A stretch of DNA of 64,000 bases from Terfezia claveryi. Taxonomy: Eukaryota; Ascomycota; Pezizomycetes; Pezizales; Pezizaceae. Shown piece after piece: positions 1 to 51,697 of the stretch (its first letter is position 1; every line of letters begins with the position of its first letter). The notes beneath the pieces are model-generated. The model was not told where the DNA came from. It was given only the letters and a program-made list of their open reading frames with translations, and did not search any database. Location of the stretch: the NCBI GenBank assembly GCA_015179025.1, contig WHUX01000235.1, positions 1-64,000 on the forward strand. The letters are read 5' to 3'. The position numbers and the translations under genes are program-made.

Positions 1-1223
1 GGTATAAGATAAGTATCCTCAAATACAAGTTTAGGGGCCTAGTGTTTTAATACCTTTATAACCCATTTTGTCTTCTTTTCTACTAGTTTATTATCATGCT
101 CTACCTTCTATTATATAAGGGACTTTTCAATAATAATAAGAGTTTCATTAAGGATCCGATGATTATGTTTACTACCTTGCTATTTGTTTAACTCTGATTA
201 CAGCTGTTTGATAGGATATTAATACAGAACAACTTGAGTACTTAATTGGTAGCTGCTATATTGAATTTGATTAAGGCTTTTTAGACTTTTAGAAGAGGCT
301 CTAAGTAAAGTAAGTATCATTTTGAGAACCTAGAGGTTTTCTTGTAGGTTAGAAGCAGGAAGCTATACTGGCTTAGGTAGTAGTAAGATTAAATGATCAT
401 AGACTTGTATTGGATTATAAAGCCAAATGCTTACAATTTAAAATATACTATAGATCAAATTTGGTTTATTAAATATAGCTTTGTATATAGGCTTGAGGAA
501 TTGTAAAAAGTTATATTTTATAATTCCAAACCATCTCAACTATAATACTATATTGATTTTAATAGAATAATTATACTAAAAAGTTGAAAAAACTACTAAA
601 TCTAAAGGCTAAAGAACATGAGTTGAATGAGATAGTAGCTTTAATATCTTTATCTACTATGTATTGCAAAATTCAAGAACCTCCAATTTCATATACAATT
701 TATAGCTATTCTATATTAGCAACTACTATTCTTATAGATGACTCGGCTTAGCAGTAGTTTGTAGTTTAAAGGTATTCATTAACTAGCCTAATAGAAGCTT
801 ATAATCAATATACCCTTTAACTGAATAGCCAAAGATAAATTGATTGGGGATTTCTTATTTTGAGTCTTTAATACATTCAGGATACTAGTTATAATTGTAT
901 GCTGCTCCTTTATAAATGATAATTAGTGAAACTATTATTCTATTAGTATAAATACACTCTATTATAGTAACTAGCTCTTAATTTTGATTTTGATATAAAG
1001 CTTGAAGCTCAGTATAATAACTTTATTTCTATTTGTCATTTCTATCATAAATCTTTTTTTATTAAGATTATAAATATTTCCTTACTGTAAAGGTATACTC
1101 TTATATATAGAACCCAACTATATTATAAATTAATATAATTAATATAAGTATTAAATATAATATTTTACCTTTGCAAAATAATCCTCTAAAATTGCTTAAT
1201 TTATATTTTCTATATATATTTAG
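1..1223. other. AT-rich unassigned DNA
   Basis: No open frame of note and no recognised domain. The sequence is strongly AT-rich with many stops in all frames, as expected of an old RIP-mutated repeat. The left boundary of the H3R repeat at 1224 is set by alignment with its second copy at 33429, so this block is outside that repeat. Confidence 0.5.
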
Positions 1224-1569
1224 TGTACGCTGCAAGGCAATTTTTTCTCAAACTGCCTCGCCAATACTCACCCTGATAAGTCAGTTTTTCTCTACTCTTC
1301 AAACTGGTGAGTTGGTTATTCGCTGCTCTGGATTACTTGGGTCAGCGCTGAGTAGCCGACGAGTACTCGCTCACCCTTTGTATTATTAATTTAGTACTAG
1401 TGCCGGTGCCTGACTCTGAGTGAGTTCTCATACATACTGTATATAATTCGGGTCAAATTTAACTTAGTACACTGTCACTGTCACGGATTTCTTGTACATC
1501 ACGGATTGCCTCCACTATTATGGATTGCTTGCACTATGATGGAATTGTCACCATTTCTTACAGTCCAAT

Positions 1570-1648
1570 AGTTGTTACAGAATCAACTTAAGTTGTCACG
1601 GAATCAACTCAAGTTGTCACAGAATCAATTCAAGTTGTTACGGAATTG
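1570..1648 (+). repeat. 21-bp minisatellite of H3R
   Basis: About four imperfect copies of a 21-bp unit close to GTTGTCACGGAATCAACTCA. The same unit is present in about six copies at 33776-33893, and a related short array lies in the diverged copy 3 and in the scrap near 55600. Confidence 0.8.
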
Positions 1649-1843
1649 TTTAAAGCTAACTCTAGCAAATTATGATTCTTCTTGATTCACCTAGATTACA
1701 ACCTCTTATAATATTCCATTTCCTATCCTTACAACTTAATATTACCTATAACAACTACCGCAAAAAAAAAAAAAAGGAAAATATGATATCTATTTCTCCA
1801 ATACATAACACAACCAAAAAAATAACCCTATAGATAACGTTAA

Positions 1844-2401
1844 ATACCCTACTCTTGGTACAACCTTCTCTTTAACCTCCACACTCTTCCTTCTGTTTCT
1901 TATACGTCATCAAGTTGTGGTGGTGGTATAGGTGGTGCCAGCCATATAGGTCATGCCAGGGGTGGAAGTGTTGCTAGAGGTGGAAGTGTTGCTAGAGGTA
2001 GTAGTGTTGCTGGGGGTGGATATATTTTCAGGGGTGAAAGTGTTGCTGGAGGTGCAAGTGGTGTCGGAGGTTCAAGTAGTGCTGGCAGGGCAGGTGCGGG
2101 AGATAGCTACAAACCAACAGATGCCAGTGTTGCCGACTGCAGTATTGCCAATGTCAATGAAGATGATAACGAGGAAGATGATGATGGTGATGATGATAAT
2201 AGTGATGATGATGATGATGATAATGATGAGGATGAGGATGATGATGAGGAAGATAGTAGTACTAGTGGTACTTATGGTATGGGGTGGTTGGTCACATTAC
2301 CCCCCACAAGCCGATTGGCTTTCACCCGATGCCACAACATTACAACCCTTTGTAGAATTGTTTGGCATGGTGGATTTCGGTCTCTACTTTGTATTGCATA
2401 A
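1844..2401 (+). pseudogene. Gly/Ser-repeat and acidic-tract protein, H3R copy 1
   Basis: The frame is open from 1844 to TAA at 2399-2401. It starts with a Gly/Ser/Ala/Arg repeat (units like R-G-G-S-V-A), then a run of Asp/Glu of about 40 residues (2155-2265), then a tail beginning G-M-G-W-L-V-T-L-P-P. The same frame and order exist in copy 2 at 34110-34648, which argues this is the coding frame rather than the Met-rich frame beside it. No ATG was found, so an upstream exon or a mutated start is likely. It converges on the H3-like gene, 33 bp from that gene's stop. Acidic tracts are common in histone chaperones, but that role is only inference. Its function is not recognised. Confidence 0.5.
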
Positions 2402-2434
2402 AGGTTAATAGCTATTTCATACACCTAGTTAGTA

Positions 2435-2900
2435 TTACCCTAACCTTCTAATGATATATACATTATTACTTGTCAAAAATCCATGCATGTATGCCTTCAT
2501 AGCCTCTTGGAGGGCATTTGTTGCTATGATACCAATTCTGTCTATATTTGTCCACCCACCGAGTATCATAGGAAAACTATTGTATTTGGTATTGACATTC
2601 TGTACAATATCTTGACATAACTATCAGAACGTAGTCTTCAGAATGATTAATTGCATGCTGGCCTGTTGCCTCTGAATTTGTCTAATAATTGCCACTGACA
2701 CCAGACTTAACATTCCCAGTTCAAATTAGACTAGAGGAGTTCTTACACTGATTCACTCTTCTCTTTTTTGGGACTATCCTTTTCTTTTTTGGAACCACTT
2801 TACACCTCTATTCTGTTGTGATGGGCACTTTTGCAGGGGGTACTATTGTCTTGATATTCCTAGTTCATTATTTCATTCCGGCTATTATATCTGTCCGTAT
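2435..2900 (-). pseudogene. Histone H3-like gene, H3R copy 1 (broken)
   Basis: Two exons on the minus strand. Exon 1 (2900-2747) gives a basic tail with R-T near its start, then R-N-I-K-T-I-V-P-P-A-K-V-P and V-P-K-K-K-R-I-V-P-K-K-R-R-V. A 52-bp intron (2746-2695, GTAAGA...TCAG, length 1 mod 3) restores the frame. Exon 2 (2694-2435) reads L-A-I-I-R-Q-I-Q-R-Q-Q, matching H3 VALREIRRYQ, and ends with N-A-L-Q-E-A-M-K-A-Y-M-H-G-F, matching H3 ALQEASEAYLVGLF. Loop 1 is about 13 residues longer than in H3. The last helix of the H3 fold is not seen before the stop at 2435. Broken by stops in the tail and one in helix 1, and the start ATG reads ATA. Confidence 0.8.
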
Positions 2901-3101
2901 TTGGAGGTATAAAGGAGTAAGTATTATTTTTCATACTGTTTGAAGATTGTAGATTAAAGGATCTGAGGTTTGGGACAATAAGTTTGCTTATATATGTATG
3001 TTCCCGAGGGTACAAAAATTAGACTGACATCAACCAATGAGCTGTACAATAAGGTATAATTCATTATTCATCTGCATCTCCATCTGTTAGCTTACTCATA
3101 A

Positions 3102-3825
3102 TGTAATGGAGAACGTTGTTTCATTGCTTATATAATTGATTATATACTTTTGTATTTCCTATATTACTACTATGTTATGTAACTAAACCTCTCGGTTGAA
3201 GAACTAGCCTTCTACCACCTTCTACTACTTTATAAGCATCCATAACACGCGGAATTTGCTATAGGAAGTTCCATGGCACTTGCCATATGAGGACACCCTC
3301 ATTATAGCTGCGTGACCTCTATTTTAAGGCGTGTGACTCATTACTATGGCCATATGACTATTGTTTAAGGCATGTGACTCATTACTATGGCCACATAACC
3401 ATTGTTTAAGGCATGTGACTCATTACTATAGCCACATGACCCCTTTTATACAGTGCACCACCTTCTGGTGTGCCACTCTTTATTGTATTTATTTCCTTAG
3501 TCATTAGATCTGAGAGGAGTATAAATAGGCCACTGAATTCCCTTTAGAATCCACAGACAGAAAGAAAGCAAGCAACCAGAAGCATACAGTAGCAAGCAAG
3601 CCTATATTCCAATCAGATCAAGATTATATAGCTTAGATAGTACAAATTATATAAGATAGATTACAACAGTTAATTACTGTTCCCTTTGGGAACGTCCTAT
3701 ATAGTAATCTCTCTACCCTTTTAAGGTCTTACCTCAGCAGATCCGAAATACATAAACGTCCATACCTATGGTTATAAATTGTATAAATAGTACCGAATGA
3801 ATTCTGTCTAGTACCATTCATTACA
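3102..3825 (+). repeat. 5' LTR of family 2 gypsy element G
   Basis: 724-bp LTR with ends TGTAAT...ATTACA, homologous to the LTRs at 30790, 43151 and 51698. It holds a TATAAATA box at 3520-3527 and three copies of a roughly 45-bp unit (about 3300-3450) built on GGCCACATGACC and GCATGTGACTCATTACTATG. It interrupts H3R copy 1. The extra unit explains why it is longer than the 673-bp LTRs of F. Confidence 0.9.
3520..3527 (+). promoter_or_regulatory. TATA box in family 2 LTR
   Basis: TATAAATA in the middle of the LTR, preceded by GAGGAG and followed by GGC. The same box is at 31166-31173, 43524-43531 and 52071-52078 in the other family 2 LTRs. It is the likely core promoter that sets the U3/R border. 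Confidence 0.7.
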
Positions 3826-10960: not shown

Positions 10961-11379
10961 ACTATAGCATAGGACTCCAAGGATGAAAGTGATGGCCAGG
11001 TTCTAGAGAATGACCTTTCATTATCTGACGCTGAGGCCGAGCTTACTAATTTCAACAATGATACCAAGATATATTTGGTAAAGCATAGTGTAATCGAAAC
11101 TCTATTATAGCTAGCATTGAGGCTACATCAAAAAGGATTGTCTTATCTTAGTGGTAATTCACTCCCAGGACTTATCTCGAGTGATACACATGATGATGAT
11201 TATAAGGATGTGGAGGGATTAAGGAGAATGAAGTAGAAGAAAGGAATAAAGATAATGAAGAGGGTGAAGAGAATGAAGAAGATGAAGAGGGTAAAGAGAA
11301 TGAAGAGGATGAAGAGGATAAAGAGGATGAAGAGGGTGAAGAAGAGGATGATGTTGAGGGAGAAGAACAAGATAAATAA
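10961..11379 (+). pseudogene. Acidic-tail remnant of an unidentified gene
   Basis: Frame pieces give S-L-S-D-A-E-A-E-L-T-N-F-N-N-D and then, after a frame change near 11200, a Glu/Asp repeat of about 50 residues made of E-N-E-E-D-E-E-G-K units, ending in TAA at 11377-11379. The repeat is a GAAGAGGATGAAGAG array, so the open minus-strand frames over it (Leu/Phe/Ile-rich) are shadows. It may be the 3' end of a transposase gene with an acidic tail; no domain was recognised. It lies right after A's 3' LTR. Confidence 0.35.
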
Positions 11380-11521
11380 TAACCATGTATAGGGTGTCAT
11401 GGAGCTTACACTTTGTCACAGAATTTATATTTTGTCACAAATCTCTATATTGTCCTGCAATTATTTCTCTATTTTCTCATCGTCTGATGGAATATTTGGT
11501 ATTGATTGTTTAATATATCAT

Positions 11522-12102
11522 TGTAGGTTAGGATTATTGATATATTGTTCTTTTGGATACAGTAATAGGTTAGTATAGACTAGTTACGAGGTGGACAATA
11601 GCATACTTAAGGTATAGTCTGGTTAGCACAACCCCGGTATATTAGGCTAGTGGTGCAGGCTTAGACTAGGGTACAACCCACGTGTCGGCTTGCACTAGTT
11701 CCTCAGTATTCTAAGGTTGCATATGAGACAGATAGGTATATATATATGCTCTAGTATATATTACCTCCCAGCTTGTCTGGTCTCCTCCAGTAATCCCAGC
11801 CCACTTGCAGGCAAAAGTAACCCATATGCAGCCCCGTTAAGGAGGCCAAAATAAGTTACTCCCCAAGAGGAATTTGGCAAAAGGTGAGTTAATCTGCTAT
11901 GACAATGCTTGTTCAGCTTAATTGTGTATATAACTAATAGCCTAACAGCTAGTTATCAATATTCTTTGTCAGATTTTGTTTGTTGGGTTTCCTTTGTTAG
12001 GTTTCCTTTATCAATGTATCATACTAAAGTATCTAAGCTAACTTGAGGGAACGTGCAGGCAAACTTAGATTTATTGTTGATAGTTAGGTCTGGATCCCTA
12101 CA
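11522..12102 (+). repeat. Possible solo LTR
   Basis: 581 bp with six-base inverted ends TGTAGG...CCTACA and a TATATATATA run in the middle (about 11740). These are LTR-like features. No target duplication was found and there is no second copy in the window, so this is only a candidate. It lies 92 bp before the H3-like copy 3. Confidence 0.35.
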
Positions 12103-12194
12103 ACGCTTTGTATTGCTTCGTCTCATATAAGATTATCACTATTGCTTCTAGGTCACCAAGTTCATCGCCTCCTTTAACCAGCTAATATATAAGC

Positions 12195-12717
12195 ATGGTA
12201 AGAACAAAGCAGGTTTCGAAGAAAAACCTCGGGCAACTAGTAAGGTCACAAGTCCCTAGAAATATAAAATCAGTTGTACCCCCCCAAAAAGTGGTGGCAC
12301 CAAAAACCATGAGAAAACGGTCACAAGGAGATTAGCATTCCATTCCATAAAGCATTCTATTCCATGAAGCATTCCATTCCATGAAGCATTCTATTCCATG
12401 AAGTAAAAAGGACTAATCTAACTGTATTATCAGTCAGCTTCATATGTCAGATTAGGAATCAACAGAGAAGTATTGACCTAATATTTCCAAAGATTGCATT
12501 CTGCAGGCTATGCAGAGAGATTGTACAAGATGTGAATATGGATAATAATGACAAATACTCACAGTTCATCTATCGAAATAATATGGAGCATATCCAAGTG
12601 AGGGCAATAGATGCCATACAGGAGATGGCGGAAGCATATATATATGTGTATTTCACCAGTAAGTTAAAATATATCACAGATACTGTCATGTATGCTGTCA
12701 TAGACAAATATGACTAA
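12195..12717 (+). pseudogene. Histone H3-like gene, H3R copy 3
   Basis: ATG at 12195 opens M-V-R-T-K-Q-V-S-K-K-N, clearly like the H3 tail MARTKQTARKS, followed by P-R-N-I-K-S-V-V-P-P-Q-K-V, shared with copies 1 and 2. The core frame (about 12432-12717) has Q-I-R-N-Q-Q-R-S-I-D-L-I-F-P-K-I-A-F (H3 EIRRYQKSTDLLIRKLPF), C-R-E-I-V-Q-D (H3 VREIAQD) and A-I-Q-E-M-A-E-A-Y. Tail and core are in different frames (the core is +1), as in copies 1 and 2 where a 52-bp intron joins them; here a 17-bp tandem array sits between. Loop 1 is again about 14 residues too long. The C-terminal 20 residues do not look like H3. It is the least damaged copy of the three; whether it is expressed is unknown. Confidence 0.8.
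12335..12402 (+). repeat. 17-bp tandem repeat between H3-like tail and core
   Basis: Four units of GCATTC(C/T)ATTCCAT(A/G)AA. It directly follows the tail stop (TAG 12333-12335) and ends before a potential intron end CTAATCTAACTGTATTATCAG. The array may lie inside an enlarged intron. Confidence 0.85.
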
Positions 12718-12895
12718 TCATGAATACAGTCAAAGCAGTGAACCTGATTGTAACACAAGGCAGTGAAATACATAATAGACAAATAATCCTATAGCAGGAT
12801 GTTAGACTATAATATAAAATTCAGATGAATATATTGGCTGGAGGTAATGTGCCGGGGGTATTTCCACATGTACCTCTTATAAGCTGACGAATGCT

Positions 12896-13264
12896 CTAAA
12901 AAGCAAAAAGAGGATGCTGTACAGTACTGAAACTAGCTGTAGGAGGAGGGCCAGCAGCAGTAGCAGGAGCAGGAGGAGCAGCAGCAGAAGCAGCAGCAGC
13001 AGCAGTAGCAGGAGCAGGACTAGGGGTAGAGGGAGGACTAGGGGTGGTGGTAGCAGCAGCAGCAGTAGCAGTAGAAGCAGGACCAGGAGTAGGGGGAGGA
13101 CTAGGGGTGGTGGTAGCAGCAGTAACAGCAGCCGGACCAGGACCAGGGGCAGGAGAAGAAGAAGAAGCAGCAGCAAGTGTGGGGGCAGTAGCAGGCAGAG
13201 GGGCAGCAGGAGGAGGAGGTGCAGGTACCCAATAATCATTTCCTTGTATTAGTATACTGTACAT
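12896..13264 (-). CDS. Pro/Ala/Thr low-complexity open frame
   Basis: 122 codons from ATG at 13264: M-Y-S-I-L-I-Q-G-N-D-Y-W-V-P then Pro, Ala, Thr and Ser only, ending P-L-F-A-F. The block is a CAG/AGG-type compound microsatellite that is open in several frames on both strands (also Arg/Ser-rich on plus), so a coding role cannot be told from composition. It sits where copies 1 and 2 have the acidic gene. Confidence 0.25.
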   Translation of the reverse strand: MYSILIQGNDYWVPAPPPPAAPLPATAPTLAAASSSSPAPGPGPAAVTAATTTPSPPPTPGPASTATAAAATTTPSPPSTPSPAPATAAAAASAAAPPAPATAAGPPPTASFSTVQHPLFAF

Positions 13265-13396
13265 TATCTAGCAGAAGGTTTACTATTACTGAAGATGAAA
13301 TATATAGTTACAAGAATGACCACAATATAGGAAGGTTTACATTAACAGTCGAAGAAGGACTACCCTGATATTATATGATTCTGGTTCAGATATCAA

Positions 13397-13627
13397 TTAC
13401 CAAGGAATATAAATACCTGAATGCCTAATAGCCAAAGTAAATATTAGAATCTTTGGTGAATTAGGTTCTGGTACCCGACTTCCTACTGGTTGAATACTAT
13501 TCCACCAGCCAAGTGCTTTTTTTAAGGAACGTTTAGAGTATTTGGTTTTGCTTTGAAGAGTTTTTTTTTTCTTACTATGTTGTATAGTTATATGAATTGA
13601 TTTACGGGGGATTATTAGTAAACTCAA
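13397..13627 (-). pseudogene. Short frame possibly related to the tail of the acidic gene
   Basis: 76 codons, Lys-rich start, then A-L-G-W-W-N-S-I-Q-P-V-G-S-R and A-I-R-H-S-G-I. The spacing of G-W, P, S-R and I-x-H-x-G resembles the tail of the copy 1 acidic protein (G-M-G-W-L-V-T-L-P-P-T-S-R, then I-V-W-H-G-G). The match is weak but the place and strand fit. Confidence 0.3.
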
Positions 13628-13789
13628 GTGAGGTTAGGAAGGATTTTTAGGTTTTGTAGGATATGGGAAGGATTTTTGTTATAGTCATGGTGATGGGTCT
13701 TGTAATTTATTTAAGGTATATTAATATATTTCTTAACCGATATTTGGGTAAGGATTTTGTTTAGCCATATAGTACAGATTGCTAGTATT

Positions 13790-14060
13790 ATTCATCAGCG
13801 GGTAGGAGCAATCCATGACAGTACAAGTAATCTGTGACAGTACAAGCAATTCATAACAGTGCAAGCAATCCGTGACAGTGCAAGTAATTTATGACAGTGC
13901 AAGCAATCCGTTGATCATGCAAGCAATCCATAACAGGCAATCTGGTATAGTGAAAGAAGCAAGGAATCCATGACAGTACAAGGAATCCATGATAGGTAAT
14001 CAGGCATAGTGTATACAATTCATAATAGTACAAAAAATATGAGACAAGCAATCTGGCATC
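13790..14060 (-). repeat. About 20-bp array GACAGTGCAAGCAATCC
   Basis: A dozen or so irregular copies of CAAGCAATCCGTGACAGTG. In reverse complement this is the CACGGATTGC/CACTGTCA sequence of copies 1 and 2 (1480-1560, 33670-33760), here expanded. Confidence 0.75.
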
Positions 14061-14369
14061 ATGCAAGCAACCCGTGAAGGTAGAAAGAATCTGTCATATA
14101 AAGACAACCAAGATATAGGAGAATGGAATAAGAGTGTTAAACGTAATAAGATTATAGAAGAGTCAAGATAAAATAATAAAAAAAAAAGGAAACAGGGTAG
14201 GCTTAGCGAGTAATCTGTAGATCACCGATTAATCGTGAGTCGAGTTGTAGGATAGGAAAGCTGACTTGGCGAGTTGTTGAAACTACAAAACTCACTTGCC
14301 GAGATGCGTCTTGGTGACCAGGTCTGAGTTATACTCACCACATGGTGCACACTAATTATTCTAGAGATT

Positions 14370-30789: not shown

Positions 30790-33428
30790 TGTAATAGAAA
30801 ACATTGTTTTATTACTTATGTAATTGGTTATATACTTTTGTATTTCCTATATTACTATTATATTATATAACTAAGCCTCTTAGTCAAAAGACTAGCCTTC
30901 TACTACTTTCTACTACTTTATAAGTGTCCATAATATACGGAATCTGCCATGGGAAATTCCATAAAACTTGTCATATGAACATATCCTCATTATAGCCACG
31001 TAACTATTATTTAGGCTATGTGACTTATTACTATGGCTACATGACTATTGTTTAGGCTGTGTGACTTATTACTATAGCTACATGACCTCTATTGTATAGT
31101 GCACCACCTTCTAATATACTATCCTTTATTATATTTATTTTCTTAGTCATCAGATCTTAGAGGAGTATAAATAGGCTACTAGATTCCCTCTAGAATACAA
31201 AAAAAGAAAGCAAGCAAGCATAGAATAGAGCAAGCAAGCCTATTTACCAATTAGATTAAGATTATATAGCTTAGATAATATAAATGATATAAGATAGATT
31301 ATACTAGTTAATTACTATTCTCTCTGAGGATGTCCCATATAGTAATCTCCCTACCCTTCTGAGATCTTACCCTAGCAGAACCAAAATACATAAATATCCA
31401 TGTCTACAGATATAGAATATATAAACTGTACTAAATGAATTCTATCTAGTACTATTTATTACATTTTTTTCAACTTACTTACTTAATCTTTACTCTTTAA
31501 TCCAAGGCCTAATCAACCTTTAGATACCTTTATTACACTTACACAAGTATATACTATTTGATACAGACACACATATATAAACATATAAAAAATTGATATC
31601 ATTATACAACTAGCTAGCCATCAAAGAAATCCAACAATGAGACATCGGATTCTTAACTACAGTATATTAACAAAAGACTTAAAAGCAAGCTAAGTAGAGC
31701 TCTAATAGGCTGTAGTATCTTACATTAAATACTTTCACCCTTATTTACAATACTTTTCTTAATAAGATTGATAACTTATCTTGCACTCCTAGTAACTGCC
31801 ATTACATCTGTACTTGTAGATCTAGTACACTATAGAAAAACTATCCCCCTAAGTCTCAGGAATTCTTGTTCTAAACAACCAAGCATTACAATCCCAAGAC
31901 TCAAATCTTGCTGCCTCCCATGTAGCTATTTGCTCTCGAAAAGAATTACTGCTATCAGAATCTTCTTTAGGCCCAGACATTTCTACCAATATCTCTGCAC
32001 TTATAATATGTACCTCAACACACCAATGAGAAAAAGTGATACTCTTGCTGGAAAAACTAGAACTAGATTCTAGACTAGTAGACAAAAAAAAACTAGGACT
32101 ATAAGAAACATCAGGATCCTAATATCCAACCTTACCAACTGAGTAAGCTACTGAGCCAACAGAACTGTCAGTTAAATAGAGATTATAAGGATTATCAGCC
32201 ACCACACTATCAGCACAGTAAGGTGCTAAAGAAGAAAAGTAATACAACAATTATATCATATAACTTGCTATATTTGGTTGCAGATAAAGAATAAAATCAG
32301 ATATTAATAGCACTTGAACTTAGTAAGAAGACTAAGAGGTCAAGGCAGTTAACTATATTACCTCAAGATATATAGAGATAAGTACAAGATACTCTCAGAA
32401 AGAACAGATTTATAGTTCCTAATAAGAATGGGAAAATAAATTTGTCTATAGATATAGAAATAGGAGAACTAGGTGGAGTAGAAACTAAACTATATTTTAT
32501 TATGGCATTGCCTCTCATACTAGAAGAATTTTGGAACAGACATTTTCCTACAATTGAAGAGATTTTGAAAAGTACTTACTCAATAGGATATGCCTAACAG
32601 TATCATTCAGAAGATACTCAACTTTAAATGGAAGCTATAGTAAAATACTATTTATGGTTAATACTATACACATTCAAGGAAAAGGACCTAGAAATGAATA
32701 TATTTTTAAGTAAAGAATTAAAGAAACCTATTGTTTGTCTTTTAAAGAAACTGAATTGGGTAATAAATAACTGAGAAGAAATAATAGCATTCATAATGAG
32801 TAGCACTTATCTAAAAAAATCTGTACATACTGCAGAAGATATTATCAATTCTAGTAAAGAACTTCTAAGAGTATTCCTGAGAATATAAAAAGATCAATTG
32901 AAAAGTCAAGGTCGAGCACTTAAGATATTAGAAAGGAGGACTAGATCAGCCAAAGAACTAGATGATAAAGAGCAACTACTAGAAGATATTGAATTATAAG
33001 AAGAGGATAATGATTTAGACATAGGACTAGACCAACAGAAGTAGAAAATGTAAGGAGAAGAATGAGATCCTGATAATAGTGGAGATAATATCTCAGACTC
33101 TAATAATGCATTATTAGTTGCAAGTCAAACCTCAACAAGGAAACCTAAACAAGTAAAATTAGTCTAATACCAGTAATGGGAATCTATAATGGAAATAGTT
33201 ATAATGGGTAACCATGAAGTAAGTAATGCTTTAAAAGGGATAAATATTAATCTACCAGAAAAAATATGAGGAGGAGACAAAAAATAGCAACACTAACAAT
33301 ATTTTGACTCTTGTGCTACAGCAATGCAATATTGCTTGAGTATCAAAGGAATAGATTTAGAAGGCGCTTCAGCTTTGGAAATTGTTGCATTCAGAAAGAA
33401 AGGAAATACACTCACTACTTGTAATTAG
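30790..33428 (+). mobile_element. Family 2 gypsy element H, truncated
   Basis: LTR at 30790-31463 (TGTAAT...ATTACA, TATA box 31166-31173), leader 31464-32285, then gag-like sequence to 33428 aligned with F 44640-45777. It stops inside gag where H3R copy 2 begins. Heavy C-to-T decay, comparable to B. Confidence 0.9.
32286..33428 (+). pseudogene. gag: gag fragment of family 2 element H
   Basis: Matches F gag from T-M-L-P-E-D-I-K to the D-L-E-G-A-x-A-L-E-I-V block. Many TAG/TAA at former CAG/CAA/TGG codons. The alignment ends at CACTACTTGTAATTAG, equivalent to F 45777. Confidence 0.8.
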
Positions 33429-33775
33429 TGTTCACTGTAAGGCGATTTTTTCTCGAACTACCTTGCCAAGACTCACCCTATTGAGTCGGTTTTTCTTTAC
33501 TCTTAAAACCGGCAAGTTGGTTATTTGCTGCTCTGGATTACTTGAGCCAGTGCTGAGTAGCCGATGAGTACTCGCCAAGCCTTAGTATTATTGATTTAGT
33601 ACTAGTGCTGGAGCCTGACTTCAAATGAGTTCTCATACATACTATATATAATTCGGGTCAAATTTAACTTAATATACTGTCATTATTACAGATTTCTTAC
33701 ATATCATAGATTGTCTCTACTGTTATGGATTACTTACACTGTCATGGAATTGTTGCCATTTCTTACAGTCCCATA

Positions 33776-33893
33776 GTTGTCACAGAATCAACTCAAATTG
33801 TCATGGAATTAACTCAAGTTGTTATAAAATTAACTCAAGTTGTCACAAAATCAATTTAAGTTGTCACAAAATCAACTTGAGTTGTTACAGAAT
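33776..33893 (+). repeat. 21-bp minisatellite of H3R copy 2
   Basis: About six units of GTTGTCACAAAATCAACTCA type, against four in copy 1. Confidence 0.8.
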
Positions 33894-34109
33894 TATTTAA
33901 AGCTAACTCTAGCAAATTACGCTTCTTCTTGATTCACCCAGATTACAACTTTTCATAATATTCAATTTCCTATTCTTACAACTTAACATAATGTATAACA
34001 ACTACTGCAAAAAAAAAAAAAATAAAAACGTGGTATCTATCCCCCCAATACGTAATATCATGAAAAAAATAACCTTATATATAATGTTAAATACTCTATT
34101 CCTAGCACA

Positions 34110-34648
34110 ACATTCCCTTTAATCTCCACACTCTTTCTTTTATTTCTCATGCATCATCAAGTCATAATGACAGTATAAGTGGTGCCAGCCGTATAGGTTA
34201 TACTGGGGGTAGAAGTGTTGCTCAAGCTAGAAGTGTTGCTGGGGGTGGTAGTGTTGCTGGAGGTAGATGTGTTTCTGGGAGTAGAAGTGTTGCCAGGGGT
34301 GCAAGTGGTACCAGAGGTTCAAGTAGTGCCGACAGGGCAGGTGTGGGAGATGGCTACAAACCAACTAATACCAGTGTTGCCGACCATGATATTGCCGATG
34401 TTAATGATGATAATGACGAGGAAGACGATAATGGTAATGACGATGATGGTGATGATAATGATAGTGATGCTGATGAGGATAAGGATAATAATGAGGAAGA
34501 TAGTAGTACTGGTAGTGCTTGGGGTACGGGGTGGTTGGTCATGTTACCTCCTGCTAGCCGATTGGCTTCCATCTGATACTACAACATTATATCCCTTTGT
34601 AGAATTGTTTGGTGTAGTGGGTTTTGGTCTCTGCTCTATATTGCATAG
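34110..34648 (+). pseudogene. Gly/Ser-repeat and acidic-tract protein, H3R copy 2
   Basis: Same frame and order as 1844-2401: Gly/Ser/Arg repeats (R-S-V-A-G-G-G-S-V-A), the block D-G-Y-K-P-T-N-T-S-V-A-D, an Asp/Glu/Asn tract of about 40 residues, then G-T-G-W-L-V-M-L-P-P-A-S-R-L-A. A TGA (about 34574) cuts it before the homologous stop TAG at 34646. The part from 34343 to 34576 is open from an ATG. That the repeat and acidic frame survive in two copies supports a real protein. Confidence 0.5.
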
Positions 34649-34719
34649 AGGTTGATAGCTATTTTATACACCTAGTTAGTATCACCCTGACCTTCTCACA
34701 ATATATATATTATTGCTAG

Positions 34720-35146
34720 TCAAAATTCATGCATGTATACCTCCGTAGCCTCTTGGAGGGCATTTACTACTATAATACCAATTCTGTCTATATTTGTTTT
34801 CTCACCGAGTATTATAGGAAAACTATTGTATTTGGTATTGACATTCTGTACAATTTCTTGATATAACTGTTGGAACGCAATCTTTGGAATAATTAATTGC
34901 ATGCTACCTTGTTGCCTCTGAATTTGTCTAATAATTACTACTGACAGCAAACTTAGTATTCCTAGTTCAAATTGGACTAGAGGAGTTCTTATAGCAATTC
35001 ACTCTTTTTTTTTTTAGTACTACCCTTTTCTTTTTTGGGACTACTTTATACCTCGATCCTGTTGTGATAGGCACTCTCATGAGGGGTACTATCATCTTGA
35101 CATTTCTAGCTTATTGTTTTTTTTTAGCTATTATATCTGTCTATAT
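34720..35146 (-). pseudogene. Histone H3-like gene, H3R copy 2 (broken)
   Basis: Exon 1 (35146-34993) has a tail with V-V-P-K-K-K-R-V-V-L-K-K-K-K. The intron (34992-34941) keeps its 52-bp length and CAG end, but the donor GT is now AT. Exon 2 (34940-34720) is open: I-I-R-Q-I-Q-R-Q-Q-G-S-M-Q-L-I-I-P-K-I-A-F, Q-E-I-V-Q-N, a long loop, then N-A-L-Q-E-A-T-E-V-Y-M, and a TGA in place of the next codon. The start reads ATA-TAG. It is the best preserved core of the two minus-strand copies. Confidence 0.8.
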
Positions 35147-35350
35147 TTAGAGCTATAAAGGAGTAAGTATTATTTTCCACACTACCTGAAGGTTATAGAT
35201 TGAAGAATCTAAGGTTTGGGACAATAAGTTTGCTTATATATATATGTTCTCAAGGGCATGAAAAAATAGACTGACATCAACTAATAAGGTCTATAACAAG
35301 GTATAATTCATTATTCATCTGCATCCCCATCTGTTAGCTTACTTATAATA

Positions 35351-35814
35351 ATAGGAGTAACAAAAAAACATTACCTTAGTATTATACCACATTAGCCTGT
35401 TGATGTTAAAAAAACACACAAAGAAATACCCTATAGAATTCTAAAACAAATATCTCCTAGTATATCTAGTAGGCATCAAAAAAATATACAAAGAAAATTA
35501 CTCTTGCATTATGCTGTAGACATCCAAAAAGAACAGAAAAATCGAAATACCCTTTGCTTCAAGCTGTAGACATCCAACAAATATACAAACAAAGACACAA
35601 TAAAATACACAAACAAAAATACAATAATCAAAAACAAATAACAAACTACCTTGTAATTCACGGTATCTATAACAAGTTTTCCATCCGAGACAAGTTTTCT
35701 ATTCGTGACAGTAAAAACAAATCTAAATTAGTTCCCATTCTCCTCTCTGGTCTACTTCTTCCTCATTCTTACTATAATTGTCACCTTCATCATTATACTC
35801 ACCCTTATTCTTAT
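35351..35814. other. AT-rich spacer with ~60-bp imperfect repeats
   Basis: At 35400-35610 there are three or four imperfect ~60-bp units containing TGTAGACATCCAACAAATATAC and AAAGAAATACCCT. No supported gene; the plus-strand frame 35554-36033 crosses this and the gene on the other strand and is taken as a shadow. Confidence 0.5.
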
Positions 35815-38434
35815 CTACTGGCTCATCATTCCCCCATTATTGCCTGCAACTTGCTTCTTGCTTTTGTCTTCTTTATTGTTGTCACTTGTTATTATCACAG
35901 CACCTCGATGCAATATCCACTGATATACTCGGTCATTGACCTTGTAATCATTTTCCTCATTGGAATCCCTATAGTCCTCATCTTTGGTATTTCTTGGAAG
36001 CAATTTGGCAGGCCTCTCTCTGCTAGGTGCTGACAACCCCTTTCCCCATTTGCTGGAGTTAGATTCAATTAGTTGAGCTTCTTCTTCTTCCAAATAACCC
36101 ACTGAAGCTTCCTATAGACCCCTAAGTCATACATCCTCCTCATTATCTTGCTTGTTAGGATTGTCATCATAGTCCTATCAATTGGTATGTAAATTTTTCA
36201 CATTTAGATCAAGTATAAGGATGCACTTACCTCCTCAATATTAGTTTAAATGTCCTCATCACTTAAGCAATCATCGGCACCCCCCTTGGCTAATTCGTCT
36301 TATATAGTCTGCATCTTGCTATCTATTACTACTGCCCTGTCATGTGTGTTGGGCCCTGTATAACTAGTCCCATACCCAGATACTTTTAAGAGGGTGTCAC
36401 TAGTCCAGTTAGGGGTATTACGTTTGATTGGATTGTCAAATTGGGCATAGGCCTGGCAGTTCATCAGTATAATGCTAATGACCACTGCAAATTCCTGAAA
36501 TGGCTTTATCTCTATTGCTTCCTACTCCCCATTAGGAATTTTGAATTCAGGGAGCTCTTCTTGCTCCTGTAATTCTAAATAGACTTGTTTCTACTCGTTA
36601 GACAGCTGATACCACTGGTACAAAATATATGCCTTTTTGTAGATAAATATTAGGTCACAGGTTCTTTGAACTAGTTGTTCAAAGTTGCCTCGTTTTATAT
36701 TAGTTAACTGGTTCTTTCAGGTGCCTATTGCCTTTCCAGTAGTAGAGGCATGTTCGGCCTTCTTAATCCCTACTTTGAGCATCCTGTTTACTTTTTGCCT
36801 TTTCTAGTCCTTGGTCTACTTCTATGATACTGAGTGTCCAAGCAGTTTCATATGTATTTCTCAAAATTTTTTTATATAGAGATTAGTGGAGGTGCCCTAT
36901 ATATTTCTCTCCCTGCTAAATTCTGTTTCTAGATTAAACTCTCAAGGGCCCTATAGAAAGTCGGTATATTTGGCATAAAGATTCCTTTGGGGTTCAACTC
37001 TTATCTTTGTTTTTTCTAAAACCTCCATCCTTAGCTAGTTTGGCTCTTAGTGTTCTTCTTTTTGGAATATCTGCAATTGGGGGTAGGTAGAAGCCTAGTT
37101 CGGCTCTTGTCTTTCTTCTTGTTGGAACATCCTCAACTGGGGGTAGGATGAGGGCTAGTTTGGCTCTCATCCTTCTTCTTATTAGAATATCTTCAACTAG
37201 GTAAGCTAATTCTACTCTTGTATTCCTTTTTTTTGGAACATGCTCTATTGTCTGTGCTGTTCAGGTTGTCTTTCTTTATTCCTGCTCTGGTGTCAGGCTG
37301 GCTGGCGCTTTGCTAGTTATCTTACTTTTCTTCTAAGGATAGTTTGGTATTATGAATACTTAAACACAATCTTTATCAGTGGTCTTTCCACTTTGGGCTC
37401 TACATCGAACCACTTCATATGACCTTCGTAATAGCCTCCATAATACAACTTTGCAACATATACTCCTTTATTATCTTCATAGCTGCTGGTTGTTTATACA
37501 GAAATATCTGGAATTGAGATTCCTGATAGTTAGTGAATAAGCTAACTATAATTGCACTTCAGATTTCCTGACACAACCTCCATTACAGCCTCCATGACAT
37601 CCTCCATGACAGTATCTATGATATGGCTTTGCAATACATACCCCTTTATTTTCTTCACAGCAGATTATATAGATTCAAATCACTGTAGAAGTGCTAACAA
37701 TTCCATGGATTTGTAGATAAATAGAGGATGACTACCAAAACCTTCTGTTCATACAAATAAAAGAATCAATTCTTTGTTTATAAGCAAACCTGGATGCCAT
37801 TAACTGAACATGGCCATATGACTAGCATCACTACAAGGTATATACATAAGTTCTTACATTTTGAATCCCACCTACACTAAATTCTATGTGTGAAAAATAG
37901 GTCCAAAGTTTAATTTTGGTTGACATAGAAGAATATTGGGCCAAAATGAAATTAAGAAGAGCCTGGCCCAATGTTAATACTAAGACTTCCCCCTATAGTG
38001 ACCTCCTCTATAGATTGTACTTCCTGCTACCTTTGCTATCACTTTTATTTGTAAACTTGGCATTGCCAGGACCACCTTATCCTTCTTTAGTTAATAGTCC
38101 CAACAGCAAGCAAAGAAAGATTTAGCAGCTGATTTATAGAATTTTGCTGCTGACCAGTAGTATATGAGATACCAATAATATGAGGAGGTGTAAATAATAG
38201 AGAAAGTTGTTTAGATTGGGAATGTTTATATGGCCAGTATGGAGGTTGCCTTAGAGTTTCCTCGAGAGGCTTCTCATTATCTTTATCAACCCTTAGCTCA
38301 AGATTGCCCTCCTGTATCTCTACCTTTAGTTCCTGCAAAACCCTCCTACTGTCTCGAACATAATTTGTGTTAGTGTCATCTTCCCTAAGTGTGGCAAGCA
38401 CTTCTAGCATTGGATATCGTGACTGATTTTGCAC
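35815..38434 (-). pseudogene. Unidentified coding remnant on the minus strand
   Basis: Several minus-strand blocks look coding. From 38434: M-Q-N-Q-S-R-Y-P-M-L-E-V-L-A-T (115 codons open). 37260-37000: Lys/Arg-rich 20-residue repeats, fully open. 36760-36300: K-A-E-H-A-S-T-T-G-K-A then Y-K-K-A-Y-I-L-Y-Q-W-Y-Q-L, and F-D-N-P-I-K-R-N-T-P-N-W-T. 36102-35815: acidic, then L-S-A-P-S-R-E-R-P-A-K. Joining stops are TAG/TAA of C-to-T or G-to-A type. No known domain was recognised; a gene of a DNA transposon or a captured host gene are both possible. Confidence 0.45.
37021..37260 (-). repeat. 60-bp coding tandem repeat (20-residue unit)
   Basis: Four units in exact 60-bp register on the minus strand, without a stop. 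Units read like R-A-K-L-A-L-I-L-P-P-V-E-D-V-P-T-R-R-K-T and R-A-E-L-G-F-Y-L-P-P-I-A-D-I-P-K-R-R-T-L. Differences between units favour conservative residues, as for a repeat kept in frame. Confidence 0.8.
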
Positions 38435-39621
38435 TCGGTATTAGGTTCAATAATCACTAGAAGTTTGGGGTTAAGGATTATCTGAAAGCTGATAATAAGA
38501 TTGGGTCAAATCAAGTGAGTTACTACTACAGAATACCACTATATGCTCTATTCCTGTTCCTTACCGTAGATCAGTTTCCAGTACCATGAACCTCCCGACC
38601 TTGTAGTACACATGGTTGCCAGGCGCTTCAAACATGAGCCATTCAAGGTAATAGGAAAATACGATCATCATCATCTGTTCAATAGAATTATATAAAATGG
38701 GACAAGCCCACATGACTATTGCACTTACTTAAATAACATGGGATATGTATACAATCTCATATAAAGTAAGCAAAAAAGTATGGAAGTCATACCTGGATGC
38801 TGAAAATTCAGGCCTTTACTTAATACTCATATTAGCTGGAATTTTTTGTTTTGTTGGAGTAATAAAAGATCAGAGGTATGTTCGTACGGAATGACAAAAG
38901 GGTAGGGAAAAGCAGATAATAGAGGACAGAAAGTACATTGAGTAGTAGGAGGTAGAGACATGCTGAATTTATCTTGCCCAAGCAATGTCTCTGGTCACTT
39001 CTTTTAGGCAAGTGTAGACTAAGGTATGTGCTACTTTGTACATTAACCTAGCTATGTTGCCTTGACCTATACCTCACAATGTCTAGGGTTGTACGACCCT
39101 TCTCCCTCACAAAGAAGCTTATACAACTAGACTACCTATACCACTACAAGCAATGAATGACATTATTACCAGTACAGTAATGGATAGGTTATTGGGATAA
39201 CCATATCAGGATTAACTGTGCTATTGAGAAGATATATTAACTGTTAGCATATAAGACAGATAGAACACTTGACCTACCAGGTTACCTTCTACCAGCTAAA
39301 CCAGCTCTTATGGTATAGATTATACTATTGACTCATCACTCTCATAGATGTGGTACTATTATGAACCATTTTGATAGTCCTACACCAGCCTGGAGTAGAT
39401 CAGAATGGTAGTAGCTAGTCCTAAACTTATGTGGTCATAGATATTTCTTCTGGTCTGGGTATTTTCTCTTGTTAGAGACAGATTATTTTGTCATGAATAT
39501 CTTGTCATGAATGTCTTGTTACGGATGTCTTGTTACGGATGTGTTGTTATGGATCTATTCCTTGTCTCAAATGGGCCATGCAGGTGGATACAATTAGTAT
39601 TAGCTGTAGAGTAGTTTACTT
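38435..39621. other. Unassigned AT-rich DNA
   Basis: No frame of note. A short direct repeat of TTGTTACGGATGTC type (39490-39560) resembles the CACGGATTGC motif of H3R only loosely. Confidence 0.4.
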
Positions 39622-40082
39622 TTGTCCTCCAATTCTAAGGCAAGTAGCCAATCTACCAAAAGAGGACATTGCTATTTAGGGATTCTTTCCAGAACTGTCA
39701 ACAGAATTTTTGTTATATGGTTCAACATGGTTGTAATTATCACTGACTATATTAGCTTCATAACAAGCATTGTGCCAAACAAACTACTTCATAATATGGC
39801 CAAATACTATAATCCTAAAGATGAACTCACTTTCTAAGAGTTCTGGTAGTGGTGGAGAGATACTACTGGACTATGACGCTTCTTTAGTCTACCAGTTACA
39901 GAATTAGTAACATCCCAGTCCATCTAGTTATTTATAGACCAATTCGACCCCAACAAGATTGCCTTCTAAGCAGTAGCCATAGAGCTTCTAGAGAGGATTT
40001 GGTTTAATCGGTGAGATCTAGTATTCCCTATGAGCTTGCACAGGAGTGCATAAATCTTTTATCTGGATGACTATACTCTCTA

Positions 40083-40713
40083 TGTAAAGTAAGATAGCAT
40101 GCTTCATAACCAACTCTCTACTGCTGGGTAGCAGTACTAGAGTTTACTATAGCAAACTATAGGTGCACGGAACCTATAGCTTCTGTTTAGGTATATTATG
40201 CTTGCATATATTCTATTGTCGCTCTAGTTGTAAAAGGTAGGCCCGACTAGTCTATAACTTATTATTGAAATATAGAGGGAGATAGGCCCCAATATGCTTA
40301 GAATATAAGAACTCAATACTTTATTATTGGTAGACATCTACTACTCTGTTTTTGTCTCTATCACTGGCTTGAATGCTCCTCCAACTGAGGGAAATTTAGG
40401 GGACTATATATGTTTCCAATGGGGCAGTACTGGGATAGTGCTAAGGTAGTGCATTATTATCTGACCCTTATATATGATTGAAATCAACATAATAGAAACT
40501 TCCAGAAACTACTAGAAAATATAACTACAAGTACCACATGACTCTTCCAATAAGTCACACTTATTACTATAATAAAATACATGAGGTACTATACCTTTAT
40601 TATCATCTGCCGGCTGACGCTAGCAGTCTGATAATATCTTATTCTACTAAGTTAAAAGTTGTTATGTAACAGAAGTTACATTTCATCTCCTAATGGAATA
40701 TAACTTCCTTAAA
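40083..40713 (+). repeat. 5' LTR of the non-autonomous element
   Basis: 631 bp; the final CA of copy two is AA here. The two LTRs differ by scattered transitions, so the insertion is not new. Confidence 0.9.
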
Positions 40714-40730
40714 TGGCTCCCTCAAAAAAG
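40714..40730 (+). promoter_or_regulatory. Putative primer-binding site
   Basis: TGGCTCCCTC directly next to the 5' LTR; TGG would pair with the CCA end of a tRNA. The tRNA was not identified. Confidence 0.5.
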
Positions 40731-41193
40731 AGAGTCCTACTCTTAAAAATTAAAGTTTTACCTTGTCGAAAGGTGTTGTAAATATATGTTCTTATACTGA
40801 TAAGATTTGTTGATACTACATAATAATATATAACTGTTCAGTCAGGCCTCCAACCTTTCTAATATAAGTTATTATGTTTGTCGTACATTTCTAGAAAATG
40901 TGGGACCTTACAATTAAGTAACCAATTGAATTGTACTAACTTTGGCAAAGAGGAACTAAGTCTTAAAATATGTATTTAAATCTTAAAGTATAAGTTGTAT
41001 ACTTAATAACTTCCTATTGACAAGTACTTTTTATAGTAACTTTTAGCTATTATAATAAAATCTTTATCTCGAGTTTAGTTATAACATGTCATACTATTGT
41101 AATAGAGGTAGATACATCTATTTCTTTTCATAGAAGCTTACTATTGTTACTACTTGAGACTTAAATAATAAAGTACTATATTCTATTAAAAAA

Positions 41194-41824
41194 TGTAAAG
41201 TAAGATGGTATGCTTCATAACTAACTCTCTATTGCCGGGTAGCAGTACAAGAGTTTACTATAGTAAACTATAGGTGAACGGATCCTATAGCTTCTATTTA
41301 AGTATACCTTACTTATATATATTCTATTGTCACTCTAGTTGTAAAAGATAGGCCCGACTGGCCTATAACTTGTTATTGGAATATAAAGGGAGATAGGCCC
41401 CAACGGGCCCAGAATATAATAGCTGAATACTTTATTATTGGTAGATATCTACTACTCTATTTCTGTCTCTATCACTGGCTTAAATGCTCTTCCAACTGAG
41501 GGGAATTCAGGGGACTATATGTATTTCCAACTGGGTAGTGCTAGAGTAGTGCTGAGGCAGTGCACTATCATCTGACCCTTACATATAATTGAAATCAAGA
41601 TGATAGAAACTTCCAAAAACTACTAGGAAATATAACTACAAGTACTGCATGACTCTTCCAATGAGTCATGCTTATTACTATAATGAAATATATGAGTTAC
41701 TATACTATTATTATAATCTACTAGTTGATACTGGCGGCCTAATAATATCTTATTCCACTAGGTTAAAAGTTATTATGTAATGGAAGTTACAGTTCATTCC
41801 CTAATGGAATGTCACTTCCTTACA
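41194..41824 (+). repeat. 3' LTR of the non-autonomous element
   Basis: 631 bp, TGTAAAG...CTTACA, preceded by ATTAAAAAA and followed by the CTCTA target duplication. Confidence 0.9.
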
Positions 41825-42562
41825 CTCTATGATTTGTTATAAGTTACTCTTTTCTACCATTACTTGTGTAACAGCCAACAATCATAGGGTTTATGCCAAG
41901 ATTATCGATTCCCATTTTGTTAAGTTAACTGTACACTAAAATATTGAGGTCTCGACTTATCATATACTAGGTACTCTCTCAGACCTACCAGATCCCTGAT
42001 GGGACAACTATTCGGTATACAGTGTATATATCTCTGCAATAGCATCCCCTCCCTAGAATAACAGTATTATGTTATGGGCAAGAGTTCTGGCTTTGCCCTT
42101 TTAGAAGGTATATTTCTAATCTATATACATAGATAGAGCAGCGGGCTAACTGTGTCTAGACCTTGAGAGATTATAGAACTTACAGCCAGTCCCAGTTGGC
42201 TATTAAGATGCAGGATAATCTAACTGGATTTGACCAATATCCTCGATAATATATTAAAGCTTCTAGGAAGTAATATTGCTAATAGCCCCAGATCATTTAA
42301 TAGCTCTAGCTAGACTAAGTCCAAACTTAGTAATGACTTTGGAGACCAAATGATGGAGGACAACATCGACTGCGATTCTTATTATAGCAATTTATCATCT
42401 TCCTACAGGAAAAGCTCTGATTGTACAACTAAGCTCTTGTGGTCATCCTACAGCTCAGAGGATTCTAGTAATGACGAGGATAATGACTCATATGATGACT
42501 ACGAAGACATCGGGGACCCTTTTTGGCAGGATTGGACAGTTGAGTGTTTAGATTGGGATTAG

Positions 42563-43011
42563 GCTTGGCGCACTGTAGATGCACCACAACATGATTGATA
42601 TTATGGATAGTACCTCAAATACCAATAGAATGTCTTCCACAGAATCTGTGACAAGTACACGCTATCTATGAAATGTGCCAACTGGTTGCAGAATATGAAT
42701 AAATAAAGATCTCTTCTCTAATGCCTTTCCCAACTCATTGCTACCTTCTAGAAACCCAATAACAAGACGATTTTGCCCCATACTTGAATGTATCTCTTAC
42801 TACAAGTATACACGTACCTTATTCCAATACAATAGTTTTCACTCTCACCAGAATATCAGGTAGAACTGATTTTCAGTAAGAAGCAGAGAAATCTATACTA
42901 TTTGATAAATGGTGGAAAACTACTGATTGGGTAGACAAGCTCTAGGACAATTTAGCCAAAGAGATATGAAGTAATAATATCAATCTACCCACATAGGATT
43001 CAAAACTATGA
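42563..43011. other. Unassigned DNA before the hAT gene
   Basis: No supported gene. It probably includes the 5' untranslated part or terminal region of the hAT element, but no terminal inverted repeat was found. Confidence 0.35.
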
Positions 43012-43150
43012 ATGGCAGCACATTGGGCCCATTTTGAATAAAGCACAAATATTCAGAGTGGGGAGCTGTTCATATCTTATTTATCTTGCAAGGGTACCTT
43101 ACAATACTTTAGTATGTTCAATGTGGGCACTATACACATGAGAGCTCATC

Positions 43151-43823
43151 TATAATGGAGAATGTTTTATTACTTATATAATTGCTGATATACTTTTGTA
43201 TTTCCTATATTACTATTATGTTATGTAACTAAGCCTCTCGATCAAAGGACTAGCCTTCTACCATTTCCTACTGCTTTATAAGCATCCATAGCGTGCGGAA
43301 TTTGCCATGGGAAATTCCATGGAACTTGCCATACGAGCACACCCTCAGTATGGCTGCATGACCTTTGTTTTGAACATATAAGTCACCACTATGGCCACAT
43401 GACCTTTGTTCTGGCCATGTGACTCATTACTATGGCCACATGACCTCTTTTGTACAGCACACCACCTGCTGGTGTGCCACCCTTTATTGTATTTAATTCC
43501 TTAGTCATCAGATCTCAGAGAAGTATAAATAGGCGCCGAATTCCCTCTAGAATCTAGCAAGCAGACAGAGAACAAGAAAGCATGCAGTAGCAAGCAAGCC
43601 TATATACCGATCAGATCAAGATCATATAGCTTAGATAGCACAAATCATATAAGATAGATTACACCAGTTAATTACTATTCCCTTTGGGAATATCCCACAT
43701 AGTAATCTCTCTACCCTTCTAAGGTCTTACCTCAGCAGAACCGAAATATACAAACGTCCATGCCTATGGATATTGATTGTATAAACGGTACCGAATGAAT
43801 ACTGCCTAGTAGCATTCATTACA
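43151..43823 (+). repeat. 5' LTR of F
   Basis: 673 bp, starts TATAATGG (TG mutated to TA) and ends ATTACA. TATA box at 43524-43531. Two to three ~45-bp units of GGCCACATGACCTTTGTTCT at 43340-43450. Confidence 0.95.
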
Positions 43824-47720: not shown

Positions 47721-47967
47721 GATCATCAGGAAAAAAAATAGTTTGTCTCCAGTGTCTCTAGAGACAGTAATGCCACTGGAGACAAGGTGTATCTCCCCGA
47801 TTGGCAGAATGTCTCCCAGTGTCTCCAGGAGACACTGGGAGACACTGGGAGACACATAGGAGACACTTAGGAGACACCTAGGAGACATAAAAGACACAAA
47901 AGACACAGGAGACAACCCTGTCTCCTGGAGACACTACCTAGCGTCCCGATGCCACTTTTTTCTTACT
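47721..47967. mobile_element. 247-bp GTCTCC-rich insertion in RT of F
   Basis: Separates L-Q-R-L-Q from D-D-E-K-F-Y-L-K-E-S-K of RT. Removing 247 bp (1 mod 3) restores the frame exactly. GATCATCAG on the left and GATGATGAG on the right may be a 9-bp target duplication with two differences. The insert is full of GTCTCC/GGAGAC in both orientations (for example CAGTGTCTCC, GGAGACACTGG) and has ATCATCAGGAAAAAA against CTTTTTTCTTACTGATGAT at its ends, an imperfect inverted repeat. A MITE-like element or a local palindromic expansion would fit. Confidence 0.7.
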
Positions 47968-51624: not shown

Positions 51625-51687
51625 ATCTTAGGATGTATGGAAATCAATTTAGCAGAACAAGAGAAGTAAGGATAGGAAATTCTTCTA

Positions 51688-51697
51688 TGTGGGGAAG
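51688..51697 (+). promoter_or_regulatory. Polypurine tract of F
   Basis: GTGGGGAAG next to the 3' LTR. Confidence 0.65.

Follow-up and report, generated by a model that had tools for sequence, protein, structure and literature searches.

Three H3-like loci in the window

The analysed DNA, referred to as the window, is a 64,000-nucleotide stretch (C152:1-64000) of the 72.6-Mb, 794-contig assembly of the desert truffle Terfezia claveryi, a member of the Pezizomycetes. A first-pass annotation made from the sequence had reported three H3-like loci in it; these are real, and all three are homologous to histone H3. Their positions, together with those of the transposon features around them, are given in Table 1, in which A and B (and, in the text, C, D and E) denote lineages of a single family.

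Table 1. H3-like genes and transposon features in the window.
Feature	Position	Strand	Description
Copy 2, B-like element right-hand end	1221..3102	-	Truncated at 3102; right TIR (TAGTGTACGC in the inward direction) at 1221
Copy 2 H3-like gene	2300..2877	-	Exon 1 from 2877, exon 2 2471-2692, exon 3 about 2300-2415; several stops
Copy 1, A-type hAT right-hand part	10961..14354	+	Ends at right TIR GTGCACACTA at 14354; left part missing
Copy 1 H3-like exon 1	12195..12330	+	MVRTKQVSKKN...RNIKSVVPP... (translation)
Copy 1 H3-like exon 2	12434..12658	+	Alpha-N, alpha-1, long loop 1, alpha-2; stop-free
Copy 1 H3-like exon 3	about 12736..12858	+	Alpha-3 region; two stops (1 TAG, 1 TAA)
Copy 3, old hAT element of B/E-like type containing nested insertions	33426..55073	-	Right TIR at 33426, TAGTGTTCAC read inward
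Copy 3 H3-like gene	34600..35146	-	Decayed; exon 2 at 34723-34938; intron 2 has lost its 5' splice site
Copy 3 ORF2	36207..37140	-	Conserved partner of the H3-like gene, located upstream of it; stop-broken; pieces 65% and 76% identical to C355 ORF2
Copy 3 ORF0	39793-40083 + 41822-41914	+	tblastn, blastn; divided by insertion
Copy 3 hAT transposase, N-terminal part	42644..43151	+	49% identity; strand opposite to the H3-like gene
Nested LTR retrotransposon in copy 3 transposase	43151..52371		674-bp direct end repeats, 92% alike
Copy 3 hAT transposase, remainder	52399..55073	+	57-68% identity pieces to C773 transposase; many stops

Copy 1 is 84% identical over 3435 bp (blastn) to positions 9318-12596 of a young sister element on contig C773, and it shares its right end with 11 other copies. 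The H3-like gene that had been placed at 12195-12717 on the plus strand is indeed there, but its third exon, which encodes the alpha-3 region, falls outside that span. Exon 1 is 87% identical over 12195-12329 to the spliced A protein, and comparison of the junction DNA with an A copy (L022) indicates that the GT of the splice site following it is gone. This exon carries the MVRTKQ start, which had been assigned to copy 3. Exon 2 reads ...RQIRNQQRSIDLIFPKIAFCRLCREIVQDVN...AIDAIQEMAEAYIYVYFT, in which the alpha-N, alpha-1 and alpha-2 helices of H3 are recognisable. In exon 3, positions 12732-12854 match residues 120-160 of the query at 73% identity, with the 3' splice position read from the DNA. 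The match values of a locus on another contig (C420:11787-12446) equal those of copy 1, and this contig is probably a duplicate (haplotig) of part of the window.

Copy 2 represents 1.9 kb at the right of a B-like element, and copy 3 was delimited by colinear blastn matches to the lineage B element on contig C355. A left TIR was looked for in copy 3 and not found, so that 55073 is the last aligned base; the best candidate, at 55486-55495, is not claimed, as its flank (TCACTGTT) differs from the right-hand flank (CTTGTAAT). The two 1.9-kb units at 1221-3102 and 33426-35349, previously described as near-identical, are both right-hand ends of transposons and share 81.6% identity over 1925 bp. The insertion that divides ORF0 of copy 3 occupies about 40085-41827 and its halves are 85.8% alike over 627 bp, while the C-terminal dimerisation region of the copy 3 transposase lies at 54427-54729. 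All window copies are dead, with stops in exons and transposase, and none of the three H3-like genes is intact, each having stops, a lost splice site or both.

When single exons were compared with the PF00125 profile, exon 2 of copy 1 passed the cut-off (2.5e-6, 28.2 bits; cut-off 26.4), and copies 3 (0.013) and 2 (0.18) fell under it. A search with an open relative in spliced form, however, finds every copy, with E values of 1.2e-34 for copy 1 (exon 2, 79% identity), 2.0e-13 for copy 3 and 2.3e-11 for copy 2. Because all three copies are found by this relative, and because the spliced A and B proteins match PF00125 and H3 structures in the PDB (see below), the similarity exceeds one short motif shared by chance, which was one of the outcomes that would have undone the annotation.

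The hAT carrier and its copies in the genome

The C773 element is 12,596 bp long and has perfect 22-bp TIRs (TAGTGTGCGCCACGGGGCGAGT), between which lie the exons of a hAT transposase and, on the other strand, an H3-like gene. The transposase matches the C-terminal dimerisation domain PF05699 (9.7e-12, 45 bits against a cut-off of 21.4). TIRs of hAT elements start with the consensus YARNG, and the TAGTG start of the C773 TIR fits it. The element is flanked on both sides by the 8-bp TSD TGAGTATT; its flanks form one 12-bp tandem array, which could by itself mimic a duplication, and the array falls back into register when TGAGTATT is counted a single time. An independent 8-bp TSD (AATATCAC) flanks a 618-bp MITE (L021:7391-8008) whose ends are similar to those of the H3-carrying hAT, making it a non-autonomous relative. 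The evidence for an 8-bp TSD comes from the C773 element and this MITE, the left ends of the window copies being missing or not found. Twelve A-type copies share a single right-hand end base (CACACTA in 10 of them), and a search with the C773 left end located no fewer than 40 genomic places, with 40 of 122 candidates scored. The common right end and ragged left ends had raised the idea of a non-LTR or Helitron origin, which was given up in view of the TIR, TSD and transposase.

The association of transposase and histone extends beyond this element. The C355 element contains a transposase, ORF0, ORF1, ORF2, an H3-like gene and a right end as in C773, its left end not being reached, and in lineage D (C27) a 53%-identical transposase piece lies about 6.4 kb upstream in divergent orientation. 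At 34 of 78 places with an H3-like exon 2, a piece of transposase lies 5-20 kb upstream and on the other strand, compared with 3, 2 and 3 places showing each of the remaining arrangements in turn, and at 5-12 kb the divergent arrangement is found at 17 places against 3, 0 and 3; this count used 96 of 151 transposase matches, leaving out short second fragments and distant matches. The 69 transposase relatives listed include no Pyrenophora name. The H3-like gene is almost certainly hAT-borne, and the proposal of a divergent H3-like family on a dispersed mobile unit is upheld, with the unit a hAT transposon. With its TIR, TSD and transposase identified, past mobility goes beyond inference.

A PF00125 profile search of the genome gave 40 places, and, with 150 of 200 candidates scored, the spliced A protein gave at least 177 matches to exons. 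H3-like exon 2 sequences were found at 78 places or more, comprising 40 A-type places at 68-92% identity and 38 of other lineages at 38-59%; these counts are lower bounds and take in the three window copies and the C420 repeat of copy 1. The matched exon 2 stretch is free of stops in 20 of the 40 A-type places. Of 3263 sites compared with the majority sequence of 13 A copies, 343 are changed in copy 1; 300 of these are C>T or G>A changes that affect CpG (114 of 280) and CpA (122 of 445) more than CpC (49 of 422) and CpT (15 of 404), a pattern that we take to be RIP-like with an extra CpG component. The two youngest A copies, on C62 and C773, depart from the A majority at 4 bases in 3419 and 6 in 3371, respectively, and are recent as judged from these differences. 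Stops occur late in exon 1 of the lineage C copy in C512, in exon 3 of the lineage E copy in C45, and in exon 1 of lineage D, which is seen at one or two loci.

The H3-like protein, its neighbours and selection

As read from the sequence, the H3-like gene consists of three exons and two introns. The 5' junction of intron 1 is GGAC/GTTAGC in A, GGAC/GTAAGA in E and CGGC/GTAACA in B, in the same phase, and reads GTAAGA in C; for intron 1 of lineage D no in-frame placement was found. Predicted splice sites have a 3' AG in 27 of 29 rows and a 5' GT at intron 2 in 27 of 29, two loci appearing twice among the rows. All 13 copies tested contain the alpha-3 exon (e.g. NLYATQSGDRNPPRQTILRRDVVLW; D, NYLAIYGKRSTLKIQDFQTLECI). 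Spliced proteins match PF00125 at 1.4e-9 (A), 1.1e-9 (B), 3.2e-9 (E) and 1.9e-15 (D), and the spliced A and B proteins, which served as the two references, gave in the PDB best E values of 4.6e-11 and 4.8e-11. The best 60 of 164 and 60 of 159 PDB matches are H3 chains by name, bar one group named 'Histone domain-containing protein', and by PF00125 and the PDB matches listed the histone fold is nearest to H3, not to H4, H2A or H2B. A search of a database of 5.8 billion proteins with the spliced H3-like protein gave 11 candidates, none at E 0.001.

The alpha-N helix and three core helices align in the H3-like proteins, D being without part of alpha-N. Core identity is 27-83% among the five lineages and 33-44% to host H3, and all of A-E read LCREIV where the hosts read LVREIA/S. 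In A, B, C and E, loop 1 exceeds that of host H3 by about 14 residues and loop 2 by four to five; these extensions could prevent the formation of normal nucleosomes. In two A or B regions (L021:5189-5632 and L026:5141-5791) the H3-like ORF continues past alpha-3 into long low-complexity tails, which vary by lineage: they are Ala/Gly in A and His-rich in B, and in B the other strand has an open acidic ORF.

The N-terminal tail reads M[A/V]RTKQVPKKN...RNIKS in A (MAKTKQ in one A copy), MAGTKQRARNVKT in B, MATTKTKPRNIKT in C and MARTKQKPRNIKT in E, the parts common to these four lineages being the first residues and RN[IV]K. TKQ is kept in A, B and E, and C reads TKT. No ARKS motif was found in the A, B, C or E tails. 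At position 9, lineages B, C and E have N and A has K (ungapped position 9, in the context PKKN); D keeps GRKT. A conserved H3 tail with the contexts of K4, K9, K14 and K27 is thus not present, and beyond the TKQ start of A, B and E the tail has diverged.

ORF2 precedes the H3-like gene in each of the five lineages studied (A-E; D at 33% identity), and its dN/dS is 0.157-0.231. It has 39 database relatives, which include T. claveryi, T. boudieri and metagenome proteins. The ORF that follows its conserved part is acidic, with 77 D+E and 5 K+R of 147 residues in A and 48 D+E and 15 K+R of 141 in B. A Pfam scan of 25 members gave no family in more than 2, a PDB profile search gave 0 matches at E 5 or less, and an HMG-box identity suspected by eye was without Pfam or PDB profile support; the AlphaFold2 model is poor (pLDDT 52.4, pTM 0.29). 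With no family assigned to ORF2 and a model of low confidence, it is the acidity of the protein that suggests a chaperone. ORF0 and ORF1 are kept between A and B elements (C773; the L022:3430-3870 region; C355 4528-4980), and ORF1 and the flanking ORFs gave no Pfam match.

Over exons 2 and 3 of the H3-like gene, dN/dS is 0.111 for B-E (95% bootstrap 0.049-0.227), 0.166 for B-C (0.084-0.306) and 0.113 for C-E (0.000-0.222, with some bootstraps saturated); YN00 gave 0.13-0.25 for these three pairs, and dS is saturated for A-B and A-E. Three pairs within lineage A gave 0.35-0.56 and one B pair gave 0.15 (YN00). The values within A would mostly reflect relaxed decay, in keeping with the death of most copies once they have inserted. 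The core is very probably kept for a function, and since it is under purifying selection across element lineages, the histone probably works for the element.

Possible roles of a transposon-borne histone

We consider it likely that the window loci are remnants of autonomous hAT transposons that encode a transposase, at least two further ORFs and a divergent H3, the core of which is selected and probably serves the element. In this scheme the H3-like protein would be made from a spliced transcript, would pair with host H4 and enter chromatin, perhaps at the element, and ORF2, with its long acidic C-terminal tail, might act as a chaperone or chromatin partner. Some action of the protein in chromatin appears somewhat the better bet. 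Because the tail keeps an ARTKQ-like start and is without the ARKS contexts of K9 and K27, chromatin of the element would be harder to silence, and our preferred mechanism, put forward tentatively, is that the element makes a silencing-resistant H3. A more elaborate version, in which an old hAT lineage has H3 as a standing kit, with ORF2 as a dedicated chaperone loading an H3 that could take the activating K4 mark but is devoid of ARKS K9/K27 sites, so that the host could not easily silence the element's chromatin, is more speculative.

The main functional rival is a dominant-negative or H4-sequestering H3-like factor, which would not mark the element but disturb host chromatin, for example by opening target sites or perturbing replication-coupled assembly. 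An H4-binding, nucleosome-poor protein would fit the expanded loops 1 and 2, the lost H3 residues and the retention of alpha-1 and alpha-2, but would have no need of the N-terminal TKQ that is kept in A, B and E; we hold this account to be possible rather than probable.

That the gene is instead a captured host H3 carried as a neutral passenger, as in Pseudocercospora fijiensis, has precedent, since the same carrier and capture are described in published accounts (PMC6710886, PMC3538342), and it would suit both the dead copies that make up most of those in the window and the dN/dS values within lineage A. Neutrality is, however, difficult to reconcile with dN/dS of 0.11-0.17 between B, C and E, the upper bounds of which are 0.22-0.31, or with a derived LCREIV common to A-E, an ORF2 that always adjoins the gene and introns that are kept, whereas the P. 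fijiensis copies are described as intronless and all RIP-inactivated (PMC6710886). This explanation is improbable.

The host has a separate CenH3-like gene (C773:158053-158367, L001), which is intronless, has an extended loop 1 and matches PF00125 at 3.1e-38. It is 70% identical to the H3 query over residues 36-133, and its core is nearer to H3 (72% identity) than to any of A-E (35-37%). The H3-like proteins share with it the H3 fold and a longer loop 1, but across the five lineages core identity to host CenH3 is given as 27-37%, and orthology to fungal CenH3 was not found. The centromere role suggested in the first-pass annotation is accordingly not borne out, given this separate gene and a core that is 27-44% identical to host H3 or CenH3. 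A host-serving H3 variant (e.g. centromeric or meiotic) that was amplified with repeats could account for the intact reading frames, the H3 fold and a loop 1 extension like that of host CenH3, but is very improbable, as the gene sits in TIR-bounded elements with a transposase, its copies are spread over many contigs, host H3 and the CenH3-like gene exist separately, and no lineage, except possibly D, is a single fixed locus.

H3-carrying hAT elements are already known in Dothideomycetes (PMC3538342, PMC6710886). The Pyrenophora tritici-repentis element is described as a 5.6-kb hAT that includes a central ORF, and 26 nearly identical H3L genes are reported for that fungus, for which the authors suggest drift (PMC3538342). 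Like the T. claveryi family it has many copies and a protein that is neither H3 nor CenH3, with an altered N-terminal tail; by that description it differs from the element studied here, which is 12.6 kb long, has at least five lineages, selection for three pairs and two introns, and resides in another host class. In Pseudocercospora, Cercospora and Sphaerulina, hAT elements carry H3-like sequences reported to be intronless captures of host genes, all inactivated except the original (PMC6710886). The hAT carrier, the 8-bp TSD, the high copy number (hundreds there) and the RIP-type decay are shared with T. claveryi, which in contrast has open copies, introns, a divergent protein and a partner ORF. 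On the sequence evidence and these descriptions, the T. claveryi family is of the Dothideomycete kind, but it is older, has introns and shows selection on both its core and its partner. Set against the published descriptions, what is new is the distant host class, the deep divergence under selection, the introns, the ORF2 linkage and the tail pattern; a report of this family was not found in searches of the open-licence PMC literature. The published elements have been read as gene captures followed by drift or RIP inactivation (PMC3538342, PMC6710886), and purifying selection on the H3 core between lineages, together with a conserved partner gene, argues that here the transposon uses a core histone.

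For the silencing-resistant H3 that we prefer, the functional analogy is with the VANDAL elements of Arabidopsis, in which a non-transposase gene (VANC) is proposed to counter silencing; as described, however, VANC proteins are sequence-specific DNA-binding proteins of MULEs, and the T. claveryi proteins are histones. If the H3-like protein enters chromatin, the family would be a natural experiment on H3 without ARKS sites and perhaps a fungal parallel to anti-silencing encoded by transposons. One Pre-SET match and one chromo-shadow match in the genome make it probable that the host has K9 silencing machinery. The only canonical H3 gene found (L002; C153, 7207-10461) has a tail that is itself unusual between K18 and G33 (KQIKQQFQQAAHKVARKVAHTSNSGG in the reading frame used), K being followed by V in the K27 context, which could be a feature of the lineage or a matter of annotation or an intron.
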